Below, piece after piece: positions 12,354-26,483 of a stretch of DNA of 32,920 nt (positions are counted from its first letter, which is position 1; each line of letters opens with the position of its first letter). The notes beneath the pieces are model-generated. The model searched no databases. It had not been told where the DNA came from and was given only the letters and a program-made list of their open reading frames with translations. Source of the stretch: Thermoleophilia bacterium (GTDB taxonomy: Bacteria; Actinomycetota; Thermoleophilia; Gaiellales; Gaiellaceae); the NCBI GenBank assembly GCA_023382435.1, contig JAHDVS010000032.1, positions 1 through 32,920 on the forward strand. The letters are read 5' to 3'. The translations under genes were made by a program, and so were the position numbers.

Positions 12354-13106
12354 ATGCAGGTGCAAGACCGGGTTGCCGTCGTCACGGGCTCGGGGCAGGG
12401 GATCGGCGCGGCGATCGCGGCGCTCCTCGCTGCCCGTGGCGCGAAGGTCGCCGTCAACGACGTGGCAGCGGAGCGCGCGGAGGCAGTCGCCGCCGAGCTC
12501 GCCGCGGTGGGGGGGACGGCGATCGGCGTCGCAGCGGACGTCGGCACCGCCGCCGGCGCCGAGGCCCTGATCGGGCGGGCGGCCGAGGAGTGGGGCCGGG
12601 TCGAGATCCTCGTCAACAACGCGGGCATTGCCCGCGACGCGTGGCTGACGAAGATGAGCGAGGAGGACTGGGACGAGACGCTGCGCGTGAACCTGAAGTC
12701 GCAGTTTCTCTGCTGCCGCGAGGCCGCCCGGCACATGCAGGAGCAGCGCTTCGGCCGGATCGTCAACATTGCCTCGCGGGCGTGGCTCGGCAACCCAGGC
12801 CAGGTCAGCTACTCGGCCTCCAAGGGCGGCGTCGTCAGTCTCACCCGCACGCTCGCGCTCGAGCTCGCTCGCTTCGAGATCACGGTCAACTGCGTCGCGC
12901 CCGCGCTCGTCGACACGCCGCTCTTCCGACAGCTCAAGGACGAGATCCAGGAGCGCCTGATCAAGACCGTGCCGCTGAAGCGAATCGGCACGCCCGAGGA
13001 CATCGCCCAGGCCGTGCTCTCGTTCGCCTGCGACGAGGCCTCCTACGTGACCGGTCAGGTCCTGTACGTCTGCGGCGGCCGCAGTCTCCAGAGCCCGGCG
13101 ATGTAG
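12354..13106 (+). CDS. Short-chain dehydrogenase/reductase (FabG / 3-hydroxyacyl-CoA dehydrogenase type)
   Basis: A 250-residue classical SDR with the cofactor motif TGSGQGIG (residues 11-18), NNAG and the catalytic Y153/K157 in YSASK. An aspartate at the end of strand 2 (VAVNDV) suggests NAD rather than NADP. After the hydratase it would oxidise a 3-hydroxyacyl-CoA to the keto form for the thiolase. The ATG has AAAGGAG 8 bases upstream. It is followed after only 2 bp by the LeuC-like gene. Confidence 0.93.
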   Translation: MQVQDRVAVVTGSGQGIGAAIAALLAARGAKVAVNDVAAERAEAVAAELAAVGGTAIGVAADVGTAAGAEALIGRAAEEWGRVEILVNNAGIARDAWLTKMSEEDWDETLRVNLKSQFLCCREAARHMQEQRFGRIVNIASRAWLGNPGQVSYSASKGGVVSLTRTLALELARFEITVNCVAPALVDTPLFRQLKDEIQERLIKTVPLKRIGTPEDIAQAVLSFACDEASYVTGQVLYVCGGRSLQSPAM

Positions 13107-13108
13107 CG

Positions 13109-14377
13109 ATGGGCCTGACGCTCGCGGAGAAGGTGCTTGCGCGCGCCTCCGGGCGCGACGAGGTGCGGCCGGGCGAGTTCGTCGTCGCCTCGATCGATCT
13201 CGCGCTCGTGCACGACATCTTTGCCGCGGACGTGTTCCGCCACCTCGTCGAGCTCGGCGTCGAGGAGCTGTTCGACCCCGACCGCGTAGTCATCGTGCTC
13301 GACCACCTCGTGCCGGCCCCGTCCGAGGCCGCCGCGGCCGCCCATCGCACGATCCGCGAGCACGTCGAGCGCTTCGGGATCTCCTCCTTCTACGACGCCG
13401 GGGCCGGGATCTGCCACCAGCTCCTGCCCGAGCGCGGCCACATCACCCCGGGCGCGCTCGTGGTCGGCACCGACTCGCACACGACCACGCACGGCGCGCT
13501 CGCAGCGGCCGGCACCGGGATCGGCACCTCCGAGATGGTGTACGCGCTCGCGACCGGGAAGCTCTGGTTCCGGGTGCCGCCGACGATCCGCTTCGAGCTG
13601 ACCGGGGCGCTCGCACCGATGGTGGCCTGGAAGGACGTGATCCTCGCGCTCGCCGGGCGCCACGGCGACGACGTCGCCCAGTACAAGGCGGTCGAGCTCG
13701 GCGGGCCGGCCGCGAGCTCGGCGAGCATCGCGAGCCGCCTCACCGTCTGCAACATGGCGGTCGAGATCGGCGCCAAGTTCGGCTTCTTCGCCGCGGACGA
13801 GGCGGCCCTCGCCTACCTGGCCGAGCGGGGCCACGAGGGGCTCGAGCCGTTCGGCCCCGACCCGGACGCCGAGTACGAGGCCGTGCACGGGTTCGACCTC
13901 TCGTCGCTCGAGCCGCAGGTCGCGCTCCCCTCCGCGGTCGACAACGTCGAGCCGATCGGGCAGGTCGAGGGCACGCGGATCGACCAGGCCTTCATCGGCT
14001 CCTGCACGAACGGCCGCCTCGAGGACCTCGAGGCGGCGGCCGCGATCCTGCGCGGGCGGCAGGTCCACCCGGGCGTGCGGCTGCTCGTCGCCCCGGCCTC
14101 CCGCGCGGTCTTCCAGGCCGCCGTGCGCTCGGGGGCGATCCAGGCGCTCGCCGACGCCGGCGCCTCCGTGCTCCCGCCCGGCTGCGGGCCCTGCTTCGGC
14201 GGCCACGGCGGCCTGCTCGGACCGGGTGAGCGCTGCATCGGCACCCACAACCGCAACTTCGTCGGGCGGATGGGGAGCGCCCGGGCGGAGATCTTCCTCG
14301 CCTCTCCGCAGACCGTCGCGGCCTCCGCGCTCGCGGGCGCGATCGCCGACCCGAGGAAGGTCGGCGGGCGTGGCTAG
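13109..14377 (+). CDS. LeuC-like large subunit of an aconitase-superfamily hydro-lyase
   Basis: A 422-residue protein of the 3-isopropylmalate dehydratase / homoaconitase / dimethylmalate dehydratase large-subunit family. The 4Fe-4S ligands C299 (GSCTNGR), C359 and C362 (GCGPC) are all present, as is the substrate and histidine region VVGTDSHTTTHGAL. It isomerises or hydrates a hydroxydicarboxylate together with the LeuD-like subunit. The length fits the shorter archaeal-type LeuC. The setting among CoA-ester enzymes and a PrpF-like isomerase, without leuB, argues for catabolism rather than leucine synthesis. Its TAG stop lies at the edge of a 182-bp palindromic element that separates it from leuD. 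Confidence 0.92.
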   Translation: MGLTLAEKVLARASGRDEVRPGEFVVASIDLALVHDIFAADVFRHLVELGVEELFDPDRVVIVLDHLVPAPSEAAAAAHRTIREHVERFGISSFYDAGAGICHQLLPERGHITPGALVVGTDSHTTTHGALAAAGTGIGTSEMVYALATGKLWFRVPPTIRFELTGALAPMVAWKDVILALAGRHGDDVAQYKAVELGGPAASSASIASRLTVCNMAVEIGAKFGFFAADEAALAYLAERGHEGLEPFGPDPDAEYEAVHGFDLSSLEPQVALPSAVDNVEPIGQVEGTRIDQAFIGSCTNGRLEDLEAAAAILRGRQVHPGVRLLVAPASRAVFQAAVRSGAIQALADAGASVLPPGCGPCFGGHGGLLGPGERCIGTHNRNFVGRMGSARAEIFLASPQTVAASALAGAIADPRKVGGRG

Positions 14378-14554
14378 CGCGGCGTCTCACCGCGTTGCGC
14401 TGGAGACGCGGGGGAGGTGTAGGGGCGGGACCTGTCCCGCCCGAGACGATGCGGGCAGCGGGAAACGGGGCGGGTTGCGGGCCGGACAGGTCCGGCCCCT
14501 ACGCCGTCGCAGCCGATCGCGGCCGGCGCTTTGCGGTGGAACGGTATGAGAGGC
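14373..14554. repeat. 182-bp palindromic element between leuC-like and leuD-like genes (copy 1)
   Basis: The element matches the reverse complement of 22727-22907 end to end, at roughly 90 percent identity and almost without gaps by eye. It opens with GCTAGCGCGGCG, which includes the leuC-like stop codon, and ends near GGTATGAGAGGC. Each half contains a hairpin built on TAGGGGC(G/C)GGACCTGTCC (14420-14441 and, inverted, 14480-14501). The outer ends also resemble each other inverted, so the whole is one long imperfect palindrome, like a MITE or BIME. No protein is encoded in it. Confidence 0.85.
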
Positions 14555-14566
14555 GGCACTGACGCC

Positions 14567-15080: not shown

Positions 15081-17258
15081 GTGGCGCGCGACCCCAGGCA
15101 CGACGTTCTCTTCGAGCCGGTGCCGATCGGCGCGAGGACGCTGCGCAACCGCTTCTACAAGACTCCGCACTGCTCGAGCTTCGGCTCGGACTGGCCGGGC
15201 ACGCAGGCGCATTTCCGGGCGCTGGCGGCCGAGGGCGGCTGGGCGGCGGTCTCGACCGAGTACTGCTCGATCCACCCCTCGAGCGACGGCCACCCGAGCG
15301 TCGGCGCGCGCCTCTGGGACGCCACCGACGTCGCCAACCTCGGCCTCATGTGCGACCTCGTGCACGAGCACGGCTCGCTCGCCGGGGTGCAGCTCTGGTA
15401 CGGAGCCGCGCACGCGCGCAACTACGAGAGCCGCATGCCGGCGGCCGGTGTCTCGCAGGTCCCGAGCGACTACCTGTTCGTCCAGTCCTGCTACGAGCTC
15501 GACCTCGACGGGATCCGGGAGCTCCAGCGCTGGTACGTCGATGCGGCGTGCAGGGCCCGCTCGGCCGGGTTCGACATCGTCAACGTCTACGGCGGCCACG
15601 GCTACCCGATCACCTACCAGTTCCTCGACCCCTACTACAACCGGCGCAGCGACGAGTACGGCGGCTCGTTCGAGAACCGCGCCCGCTTCTGGCTCGAGAC
15701 GATCGAGCTCGTGCGCGAGGCGGTCGGTGACGACTGCTCGATCGCCGTGCGCACCTGCATCGCGCCGCTGCGCGAGGGCGGCCTGGCCGAGGAGGAGGCG
15801 CTCGCGTTCATCGAGCTCGCCGATCACCTGGTCGACCTCTGGGACCTCCAGATCGGGGGTGTGATCGGCGAGTGGGGCGAGGACTCGCTCTCCTCGCGCT
15901 TCGGCGCCGAGAACTACCAGCGTCCGTGGATCGAGAAGGCGCGCGCGCGCACGGCGAAGCCGCTCGTCGGTGTCGGGCGCTTCACGAGCCCTGACACGAT
16001 GGCCGCGATGGTGCGAGACGGGCTCCTCGACGTGATCGGCTCGGCGCGCGGCTCGATTGCCGACCCCTTCCTGCCCCGCAAGATCGAGGAGGGGCGGCTC
16101 GACGACGTCCGCGAGTGCATCGGCAACAACGTGTGCGCTGCCCGCTACATGCAGCGGGCTCTGCTCATCTGCACCCAGAACGCGACCGCGGGCGAGGAGT
16201 ACCGCCGCGGCTGGCACCCGGAGCGCTTCACGCGCGCCGCCAACGCTGACTCGGACGTGCTGGTCGTCGGCGCCGGCCCGGCCGGGATGGAGTGCGCGCG
16301 CGTGCTCGGCGAGCGGGGCCTGCGCCGCGTTCACCTCGTCGATGCGGCGGGCGAGCTCGGCGGCGCGCTGCGCTGGGTGACCGGGCTCCCGGGCCTCGGC
16401 GAGTGGGCGCGGGTCGTCAACTACCGCCGGATCCAGCTCGACAAGCTCTCGAACGTGGAGCTCGTTCCCGGCACCGCCCTCGACGCCCGTGCCGTACTCG
16501 ACTACGGCGCCGACCTCGTCGTCGTCGCGACCGGCTCGCGCTGGGCCGCCGACGGTCTCAGCGGCACCACCCACCGGCCGCTCCCGGGCGCCGGCCCGGG
16601 GCTCGCGCACGTCCTCACCCCGGAGGACGTGCTGGTGCGGGGGCTCGAGCCACCGGGCGAGCGGGTGCTCGTCTACGACACGGACGGCTACTACATGGGC
16701 ATCTCGCTCGCGGAGAAGCTCGCCCGCGAGGGCAGGCGCGTGACGTTCGTGACGCCGTTCGCCCAGATCTCCCCCTACAGCACGTTCACGCTCGAGGCGC
16801 CGCGGCTGAACCGGCTCCTGCGCTCGCTCGGCGTCGAGCTGCTCGCCGAGCACCTGGTCGAGCGGATCGAGCCGGGCCGGGTCGGCGGCTGCCACGTGTA
16901 CGCGCCCGACCGGCCGCTTTCGTGGGAGGCCGACGCGGTCGTGCTGGCGACGCAGCGCGTGTCCGAGGACGCGCTCTGGCGCGGGCTGCGCGCCGCCGGC
17001 GACGCCGTCCGTGACGCCGGCATCCGCGGCCTCTACCGGATCGGCGACTGCGTCGTGCCCCGTCTCGTCGCCGATGCCGTCTTCGACGGCCACCGGCTCG
17101 CGCGCGAGATCGACACGGACGACCCGGCGACGCCGCTGCCGTTCATCCGCGAGAACCGCGTGCTCGGCGCGAGCTCCGAGGATTACGACGGGACGCTCCG
17201 CACGCGCCCCTCCGGGGACTACGTGCCGAGCTCCCGACGTAGGAGGGGCGGGTCATGA
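15081..17258 (+). CDS. Trimethylamine-dehydrogenase-like flavoprotein (FMN barrel plus FAD/NAD-type domain)
   Basis: A 725-residue protein closely following trimethylamine dehydrogenase. It opens ARDPRHDVLFEPVPIG and keeps C31 (RFYKTPHC, the cysteine that bonds FMN), Y61 in STEYCS, the VYGGHGY active-site stretch and LVDLWD. It also keeps CTQNATAGEEYRRGWHPE and VVGAGPAGMECARVLGERG of the nucleotide-binding part. Two features differ. The iron-sulfur motif reads C346-I-G-N-N-V-C352 and then C364, so the second ligand cysteine is asparagine. The tryptophan after this motif is Y356. It may oxidise an amine or reduce an enoyl substrate. The GTG start has no clear ribosome site. The C-terminal RRRRGGS tail is encoded partly by a palindrome. 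Confidence 0.88.
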   Translation: MARDPRHDVLFEPVPIGARTLRNRFYKTPHCSSFGSDWPGTQAHFRALAAEGGWAAVSTEYCSIHPSSDGHPSVGARLWDATDVANLGLMCDLVHEHGSLAGVQLWYGAAHARNYESRMPAAGVSQVPSDYLFVQSCYELDLDGIRELQRWYVDAACRARSAGFDIVNVYGGHGYPITYQFLDPYYNRRSDEYGGSFENRARFWLETIELVREAVGDDCSIAVRTCIAPLREGGLAEEEALAFIELADHLVDLWDLQIGGVIGEWGEDSLSSRFGAENYQRPWIEKARARTAKPLVGVGRFTSPDTMAAMVRDGLLDVIGSARGSIADPFLPRKIEEGRLDDVRECIGNNVCAARYMQRALLICTQNATAGEEYRRGWHPERFTRAANADSDVLVVGAGPAGMECARVLGERGLRRVHLVDAAGELGGALRWVTGLPGLGEWARVVNYRRIQLDKLSNVELVPGTALDARAVLDYGADLVVVATGSRWAADGLSGTTHRPLPGAGPGLAHVLTPEDVLVRGLEPPGERVLVYDTDGYYMGISLAEKLAREGRRVTFVTPFAQISPYSTFTLEAPRLNRLLRSLGVELLAEHLVERIEPGRVGGCHVYAPDRPLSWEADAVVLATQRVSEDALWRGLRAAGDAVRDAGIRGLYRIGDCVVPRLVADAVFDGHRLAREIDTDDPATPLPFIRENRVLGASSEDYDGTLRTRPSGDYVPSSRRRRGGS

Positions 17259-17266
17259 CCCGCCCC
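17245..17266. repeat. Perfect 22-bp palindrome containing the flavoprotein stop codon
   Basis: Arms GGGGCGGGTCA and TGACCCGCCCC abut without a loop, and the flavoprotein's TGA lies at the centre. The CCCGCCCCTACG ending is shared with the 182-bp elements at 14373 and 22727. It probably also helps stop transcription between the convergent genes. Confidence 0.7.
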
Positions 17267-17283
17267 TACGGGGAATGAGCTGC

Positions 17284-17304
17284 GGGCGGGGCAGGGCCCG
17301 CCCC
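17284..17304. terminator. GC-rich hairpin at the end of isocitrate lyase
   Basis: GGGCGGG (17284-17290) pairs with CCCGCCC (17298-17304), and the next bases CTACG again match the ends of the dispersed elements. The aceA stop codon (17304-17306, minus strand) touches the stem. There is no T-run. Together with 17245-17266 it fills the 45-bp convergent gap. Confidence 0.5.
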
Positions 17305-18560
17305 TACGCGAACTGCTCCTGCTCGGTCGAGCCCTGGAGCGCGAGCGTCGAGCCGGTGCCCCCGGTGACCGTCTCGAGCACCGCGTCGAAGTAGCCGGCG
17401 CCGACCTCGCGCTGGTGCTTCGTGGCGGTGTAGCCGAGCTCTTCGAGGGCGAACTCGCGCTCCTGGAGGCGGACGTACGCGGCCATGCCCTCGTCCTGGT
17501 AGGCGTGGGCGAGCTCGAACATCGAGGCGTTGTTCGCGTGGAAGCCGGCGAGCGTGATGAACTGGAACCGGTAGCCGAGCTCGCCGAGCTCGTCCTGGAA
17601 CGCGGCGATCTCCGCGTCCGAGAGGTGCCGGCGCCAGTTGAACGAGGGCGAGCAGTTGTACGCGAGCGGCTTGCCGGGGAACCGCTCGTGGATCGCGGCC
17701 GCGAACTCGCGGGCCTCGCCGAGGTCCGGCGTGGACGTCTCGCACCAGACGAGATCGGCGTAGGGGGCGTAGGCGAGCCCGCGCGCGATCGCAGAGTCGA
17801 GCCCGCAGCGGATGCGGTAGAAGCCCTCGGGCGTCCGCTCGCCGGTCGTGAACTCCTCGTCGGCTGCGTCGACGTCGCTCGTGAGCAGCTTCGCGGCGAG
17901 CGCGTCCGTGCGGGCGACGATCACGGTCGGCACCTCGAGGACGTCGGCCGCGAGCCTGGCGGCGACGAGCGTGCGCACGAACTGGCTCGTCGGGACGAGC
18001 ACTTTCCCGCCGAGGTGGCCGCACTTCTTCTCGGAGGCGAGCTGATCCTCGAAGTGCACGCCGGCCGCGCCCGCCTCGATCATCGACTTCATCAGCTCGA
18101 ACGCGTGCAGCGGCCCGCCGAAGCCGGCCTCCGCATCCGCGAGGATGGGGGCGAGCCAGCGCGAGTGGCCCGGGCCGTTACCGTTCTGGGAGCCGCCGAG
18201 GCCCTCCGCGTGCTCGATCTGGTCGGCCCGCAGGAGCGCGTTGTTGATGCGCTTCACGAGCGCGGGGACGCTGTTGACCGGGTAGAGGCTCTGGTCGGGA
18301 TAGGTCTGCCCGGAGAGATTAGCGTCGGCCGCAACCTGCCAGCCCGAGAGATAGATCGCCTTCGCGCCCGCCTGCACCATCTGGACGGCCTGCGCGCCGG
18401 TCTGCGCGCCGAGCGCCCGCACGAGCGGGCCCTCGGCGATCAGGCGCCGAAGCCGGGTCGCGCCGAGTCGGGCGATCGTGTGCTCGACGAGGACCGACCC
18501 GCGCAGCCGCTCGACCTCCCCATCCGTGTACGGCCGTACGATCTCGCCCTGCTCGCGCAT
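17304..18560 (-). CDS. aceA: Isocitrate lyase
   Basis: Cleaves isocitrate to glyoxylate and succinate in the glyoxylate shunt, letting cells grow on acetate or fatty acids. The 418 residues carry the active-site signature KKCGHLGGK with catalytic C180, preceded by HFEDQLASE. The N-terminal [15 protein letters not shown] stretch and the NCSPSFNW segment are typical of bacterial AceA. The ATG at 18560 follows GGAGG nine bases away, and this start gives the usual length. No malate synthase gene is in the window. The gene is divergent from a GntR regulator, with GGATCC-centred repeats between them that probably control it. Confidence 0.96.
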
Positions 18561-18606
18561 CTCCCTCGACCTCCCGTTTCCTCTTGGTGTGTACCGGTCT
18601 CGATCC

Positions 18607-18646
18607 CCGTCTGGATCCCGTTCTCTCCTATTTGGATCCGAGACGG
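18607..18646. promoter_or_regulatory. GGATCC-centred inverted repeat upstream of aceA, candidate GntR operator
   Basis: CCGTCTGGATCC (18607-18618) pairs with GGATCCGAGACGG (18634-18646), with one bulged base. The right half reads TTTGGATCCGA and resembles the site at 18684-18694. TTGGATCCAA-like palindromes suit FCD GntR proteins, and one is encoded next door. Confidence 0.45.
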
Positions 18647-18683
18647 AGACTAACCGGCGATTCCGGGCGCAGTATTGCACATG

Positions 18684-18694
18684 TTGGATCCGAA
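18684..18694. promoter_or_regulatory. TTGGATCCGAA site between aceA and gntR
   Basis: TTGGATCCGAA is a near-palindrome sharing TTGGATCCGA with 18632-18641. It lies 66 bp before the gntR start, so it may mediate autoregulation. Binding is inferred from position and repetition only. Confidence 0.4.
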
Positions 18695-18760
18695 ATGGAA
18701 GGTTGTGCATCCAGCGAGTGAACCCCCGCCGGGGAGGGGGTCAGTAGACTCGCGGGAAGC

Positions 18761-22649: not shown

Positions 22650-22726
22650 CCGCGTCCTCCCAATACTTTGATTTGTAAAGCGACTTCGGTAGTTGTAGCG
22701 GATCCGCCGGGCGGACGCCAGGGTGG

Positions 22727-22907
22727 CCTCTCACACCGTTCAACCGCAAACCGCCGGCCGGGATCGGTCGCGACGGCGTAGGGGCCGGACCTGTCCGGCC
22801 CGCGACCCGTCCCGTTTCCCGGTGCTCGCATCGTCTCGGGCGGGACAGGTCCCGCCCCTACACCTCCTCTGCGTTTCCGGTGCAACGTCGTGAGGCGCCG
22901 CGCTAGC
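22727..22907. repeat. Palindromic element between metY and hemH (copy 2, inverted relative to 14373-14554)
   Basis: Read on the minus strand it begins GCTAGCGCGGCG, containing the ferrochelatase stop codon, and ends near GGTGTGAGAGGC. It matches copy 1 over its whole length, with scattered substitutions. The two internal hairpins are at 22777-22800 and 22837-22862. The element lies between hemH and the metY promoter, so it may end hemH transcription. Confidence 0.85.
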
Positions 22908-25904: not shown

Positions 25905-26483
25905 ATGACAATTGGAGACGTGCCCGGTCCGGTCACGGATCCACGCGCCGCCGAGCTCCTCGCCCGCCACGGGGAGCTGTTCGGCGGCTCCGCCGTGCCC
26001 GTCCCTGTCGAGTCGATCGCCGAGGACATGCTCGGCCTGCGGATCGCCGAGTCGGACGGCCTCCCCGTCTCGGGACTCCTGCTCCCGCGCGAGCGGGAGA
26101 TCTGGCTGAACGCCGCCGAGGCCCGCCAGAGCGCCGGCCGCCGCCGCTTCACGATCGCCCACGAGCTCGGCCACTGGGTCTGCCAGGTCCTCGAAGGCCA
26201 CCGCGCCCCGATCTACTGCCGCCAGGCCGCGATCCACCCGGCCGCGGACGCCGAACTCCAGCAGGGTGTAGGGGCCGGACCTGTCCGGCCCGCGACGACC
26301 CCGCCACTCGAGCGCGAGGCGAACGTCTTTGCCGCCGAGCTCCTGATGCCCGAGCCAGCCGTAAGAAGCGCGTTCTCCCCGGACGACTCCGTCGAGGCGA
26401 CGGCGACCCGATTCGACGTGTCCCAGGAGGCCATGCGCTGGCGGCTCTTCAACTTCGGCCTGGTCGGGGAGCGGCCGGCGTGA
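25905..26483 (+). CDS. ImmA/IrrE family zinc metallopeptidase with an in-frame repeat insertion
   Basis: A 192-residue protein with the zinc motif HELGH (residues 86-90) in FTIAHELGHWVCQ and a later LEREANVFAAELLMP stretch, where E138 is the likely third ligand. A DVSQEAMRWRLFNFGL tail follows. Family members cleave phage-type repressors or act in toxin-antitoxin and stress switches. Usually an HTH partner is encoded just upstream, but none is seen here. Residues 121-131 (GVGAGPVRPAT) are encoded by a 30-bp copy of the palindromic repeat family, placed between the two zinc-ligand segments. The ATG at 25905 was chosen; an in-frame GTG at 25920 is the alternative. Confidence 0.88.
   Translation: MTIGDVPGPVTDPRAAELLARHGELFGGSAVPVPVESIAEDMLGLRIAESDGLPVSGLLLPREREIWLNAAEARQSAGRRRFTIAHELGHWVCQVLEGHRAPIYCRQAAIHPAADAELQQGVGAGPVRPATTPPLEREANVFAAELLMPEPAVRSAFSPDDSVEATATRFDVSQEAMRWRLFNFGLVGERPA
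26267..26296. repeat. 30-bp palindromic repeat core inserted in frame in the ImmA/IrrE gene
   Basis: The sequence TGTAGGGGCCGGACCTGTCC plus GGCCCGCGAC is the same core as 22778-22806 of the element between metY and hemH. It is exactly ten codons long and keeps the reading frame. Confidence 0.8.

Follow-up and report, generated by a model that had tools for sequence, protein, structure and literature searches.

The ImmA/IrrE-type peptidase gene of the window (i.e., the whole stretch of 32,920 nucleotides analysed here) embeds an exact, in-frame copy of a 24-nt palindromic repeat, GTAGGGGCCGGACCTGTCCGGCCC, which is a GTAG-tagged REP; very probably, it is a single REP that was spread by a RAYT and landed in a tolerant loop of the peptidase. 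The features on which this reading is based are listed in Table 1.

Table 1. Coordinates of the peptidase gene, of the REP family members in the window and of the RAYT-like genes of the same genome (positions without a contig prefix refer to the window).
Feature	Position	Strand	Remarks
ImmA/IrrE-type (Peptidase_M78) gene, 192 aa	25905-26483	+	PF06114 match, 6.1e-16
HELGH motif, residues 86-90	26160-26174	+	Translation and homologue alignment
32-nt stretch, 97% match to the REP at 22775-22806	26265-26296	+	Repeat family D8
GTAG-tagged REP, exact 24-nt copy	26268-26291	+	In-frame VGAGPVRP, residues 122-129
EREAN motif, residues 136-140, conserved downstream segment	26310-26324	+	Homologue alignment
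MITE-like unit with head-to-head REP dimer (14419-14442 +, 14479-14502 -)	14374-14562	.	Ends approximate
Second MITE-like unit with head-to-head REP dimer (22778-22801 +, 22838-22861 -)	22719-22906	.	Ends approximate
Two further family members	17242-17307	-	One at 17284-17307
RAYT-like gene	C23:13873-14328		NF047646 match and MPNHVHG motif
RAYT-like gene	C27:24687-25181		NF047646 match and MPNHVHG motif

The protein encoded by the host gene belongs to Peptidase_M78 (PF06114, 58.8 bits against a cut-off of 22) and has IrrE (3dte) among its relatives of solved structure. Its nearest homologues begin at the equivalent of GTG 25920, which suggests that this codon, rather than ATG 25905, is the true translation start. 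Both the HELGH and the EREAN motifs are intact, and they are invariant or nearly so across the aligned homologues; from what we know of the IrrE family, the EREAN segment presumably bears the third zinc ligand. The same genome harbors an intact second paralogue sharing 70% identity with the peptidase (C35:20463-20975). Moreover, a short stretch at G000:C51:11831-11917 (L096), 72% identical to residues 1-29 of the peptidase, may be a piece of yet another paralogue.

Reading from ATG 25905, residues 121-131 are GVGAGPVRPAT, with neither a stop codon nor a frameshift, as the earlier note had reported. That note was also right in recognizing these residues as an in-frame copy of a repeat, the tagged REP being 24 nt long rather than the 29-30 nt assigned to the palindrome core. 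It had further proposed an alignment of the homologues, with the residues to be regarded as ancestral if most homologues carried them: VGAGPVRP is missing from all 29 homologues, which range from the C35 paralogue to other families of the class, and was again missing when 21 of the 29 were realigned in a second alignment. The homologues from the named genome collection are labelled Gaiellaceae or Actinomycetota, which points, short of proof, to a similar lineage for the window, and the contig scan of this collection retrieved no peptidase homologue closer than about 60%. The nearest homologue outside the genome under study (G017) shares 67% identity, and its genome has no copy of the REP family at up to two mismatches. 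The 150 relatives compared include none of the same genus, and the homologues are too distant to fix the exact empty site.

The AlphaFold model (22-row alignment) has a pLDDT of at least 90 for 137 of the 192 residues. Since it is confident throughout except for residues 1-6 and 107-129, the latter with a pLDDT below 50, the insert is predicted to fall within a disordered loop that separates HELGH from EREAN, in agreement with the surface loop that had been expected between HELGH and the third-ligand segment. An assembly artefact was also considered; a chimeric join is very unlikely, because both flanks of the repeat encode one homologous protein in the correct order.

The repeat family comprises 108 strand hits in the 2.73 Mb genome (up to three mismatches), while the reversed-pattern control gave none; in the window, seven core copies were found within three mismatches versus 0 expected from 100 shuffles. 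The peptidase copy is predicted to fold into an 8-bp stem with a 4-nt loop next to the unpaired GTAG foot (-10.3 kcal/mol, z -4.36). This foot is present in the peptidase copy and in most family members, and the CGTC tag that characterizes RPE-4/6 was not found. Family members occur as single REPs, as perfect 28-bp palindromes with a double foot, and as dimers, in which two REPs stand head to head on either side of a conserved spacer, about 60 bp apart, start to start. Many dimers are in turn embedded in a MITE-like unit of ~190 bp whose terminal inverted repeats are imperfect. The window contains two of these units: they are the intergenic elements in which the same core had been noticed, correctly, the correction being that each of them holds two head-to-head REPs. 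Their terminal inverted repeats are near CTAGCGCGGC[C/G]TCTCA[T/C]GACGTT, and the CTAG end at 14374 provides the TAG stop for the ORF at 12590-14377. The distribution of the family is patchy, with copies (up to two mismatches) in the genome under study and in six out of 150 relatives.

Two RAYT-like genes, whose products share 57% identity, are surrounded by REPs of the family. Their scores with NF047646 (REP-associated tyrosine transposase, NCBIfam), 55 and 58 bits, are under the cut-off of 80, and the matches with Pfam Y1_Tnp are weak or absent. Downstream of the HUH motif, both genes harbor in-frame REPs in one and the same loop; the genes with the REPs around and inside them lie at C23:13763-14351 (L105 and L168) and C27:24600-25536 (L104 and L173). 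Two relatives (L169 and L171) have other GTAG REPs in the post-HUH loop of the RAYT, and a third one (L170) has an empty site there. The NH[IFV]H and WQ motifs, together with the in-frame REPs, correspond to those of RAYT subclass 2.4, according to a comparison of motifs rather than to a tree. Three further Y1_Tnp hits (C51, C22, and C18) had no adjoining REP of the family in the stretches read.

The position of the copies was surveyed for 71 elements, i.e., the listed hits (a few hits with three mismatches were left out), in about 205 kb of DNA fetched around them; each element was scanned individually, and coding regions were judged from a codon-usage score and not from annotation. Only three out of the 71 elements are read through inside a coding frame, namely those of the peptidase and of the two RAYT genes, whereas the same criterion placed 65% of positions drawn at random from this DNA inside genes. 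Hence, intragenic copies are strongly depleted, and the family is mainly extragenic. The search for other coding copies, as well as for the reading frame they use, had been recommended in the earlier note: the C27 copy uses the phase GTA GGG, read in the GTAG direction, just like the peptidase copy, and the C23 copy is read antisense.

Furthermore, of 97 GTAG feet, 21 terminate the upstream coding frame with their TAG, the figures for the other two phases being 2 and 0. In the window, the foot of the minus-strand REP at 17284-17307 gives the TAG stop of an isocitrate lyase gene (17304-18710, minus strand). Single palindromes or dimers lying between convergent genes provide the TAG stop for both of them at C1:62413 (L002), C19:10833 (L091), and C7:21634 (L100). 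Two candidates for intragenic copies were rejected on inspection: the C7:21634 dimer, whose two feet are the stops of the two convergent genes, and C27:29652, whose TAG ends the gene, which looks like GAPDH.

As to the origin of the insert, the REPs of this family would most likely owe their spread round the genome to RAYTs (Y1/HUH transposases), enzymes acting on single-stranded REP hairpins, which they cleave and rejoin at the GTAG foot. One copy would have entered the peptidase gene at the variable loop that lies between its HELGH and EREAN motifs, and it would have survived there on account of a stop-free phase, a preserved frame, and a flexible peptide placed away from the catalytic motifs. 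We infer that the insertion was RAYT-mediated, that it was neutral, and that it may be recent; the peptide encoded by the REP is probably without function.

According to the literature, the mobile unit is believed to be the dimer and not the single REP, and for this reason the peptidase copy may be the remnant of a dimer. This variant of the explanation, in which the gene received a REP dimer or a whole ~190-bp MITE-like unit and then lost most of it, keeping one REP with a few codons beside it, can be advanced only tentatively. The loop of the peptidase is about 15-17 residues longer than that of the nearest homologues, and the REP explains only 8-11 of them; however, the length of the loop ahead of EREAN naturally varies among homologues, even in those without repeats. 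Just after the core stand five bases, GCGAC, which recur among the exact copies in the dimer at 22778 alone, and the GGT ahead of the core is usually seen with the other REP in the dimers, but the shared flanks amount to a few bases, the likeness to the neighbouring 22778 dimer consisting of five matching bases only. Some lone copies in the genome retain spacer sequence (e.g., C1:23616), whereas others are free of it (C9:48464, C30:29574, and C45:13600).

The insertion might instead have crippled the peptidase, so that the gene would be an early pseudogene, still open owing to its recency. The REP bears no mutation with respect to the family consensus, and the intact paralogue could cover the function; nevertheless, the frame is open, the coding scores are high on either side of the insert (0.44 and 0.36), the motifs are preserved, and the insert falls in a loop predicted to be disordered, all of which makes this scenario unlikely. 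Even less credit can be given to a functional role of the peptide, or of a hairpin in the mRNA, for instance in tuning the translation or the stability of the peptidase. Such a role would fit with the retention of this copy in a gene, nearly all the others being extragenic, but all 29 homologues do without the residues encoded by the REP, and the peptide is predicted to be disordered; if it were true, this lineage would have recruited a mobile palindrome as a functional component of a protein. Finally, an ancestral coding sequence resembling the repeat by chance can be practically dismissed, being refuted as far as the present tests go: nothing was found in its favor, 24 out of 24 bases match the family with 0 matches expected in shuffled sequence and the residues occur in no homologue.

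The insertion of a single REP, which remains the preferred reading, can be compared with the systems described so far. The parallel drawn in the earlier note was with the Rickettsia palindromic elements (RPEs), which are likewise palindromic repeats found in frame in unrelated genes; this parallel has to be abandoned in favor of the GTAG/RAYT class, since RPE-4 and RPE-6 are CGTC-tagged, whereas the element described here has a GTAG tag and shares its genome with RAYT-like genes. To our knowledge, there is no dedicated transposase for RPE-4 and RPE-6. A search of an incomplete collection of papers for RAYT, REPIN, and Actinobacteria together retrieved nothing.

REPINs (Bertels and Rainey 2011, PMC3116915) resemble this family in that the repeated unit is a pair of head-to-head REPs separated by a conserved spacer; unlike them, the peptidase copy is single, and many dimers of this genome lie within a larger MITE-like unit. 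Quentin et al. 2018 (PMC6006769) described the RAYT/TnpA_REP subclass 2.4, with in-frame REPs inside the transposase gene and double-foot REPs. The C23 and C27 genes carry in-frame REPs as well, but their Y motif is YIVENP/YVAENP instead of YIxNNP, and the main finding of the present work concerns a peptidase and not a transposase.

The closest correspondence is with the GTAG REPs of Di Nocera et al. 2013 (PMC3733652). In that paper, which deals with 24 families, in-frame GTAG and CGTC REPs are catalogued in many genes, GTAG feet are noted as a source of TAG stops for flanking ORFs, and insertions in loops are argued to be possibly neutral. The REPs described there and those of this genome share the GTAG foot, the GC-rich stem, the short loop, the head-to-head dimers, the mostly extragenic location, the use of the foot TAG as an ORF stop, and the translation of some copies within ORFs. 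The hosts named there are Proteobacteria, Cyanobacteria, Chloroflexi, and the PVC group, with no mention of Actinobacteria, whereas the host lineage considered here is actinobacterial. Since both GTAG REPs in frame and REPs inside RAYT genes have already been published (PMC3733652, PMC6006769), the novelty implied in the earlier note does not stand: the peptidase insert is a case of an already described kind, in which only the Gaiellaceae-like Actinomycetota host and the target gene appear to be new. A Gaiellaceae-like actinobacterial lineage, as a host, and an ImmA/IrrE gene, as a target, thereby join the known process of the translation of REP insertions, and the genome-wide counts show how the insertions are sorted, most being extragenic, many ending genes at the TAG of the foot, and very few being read through.
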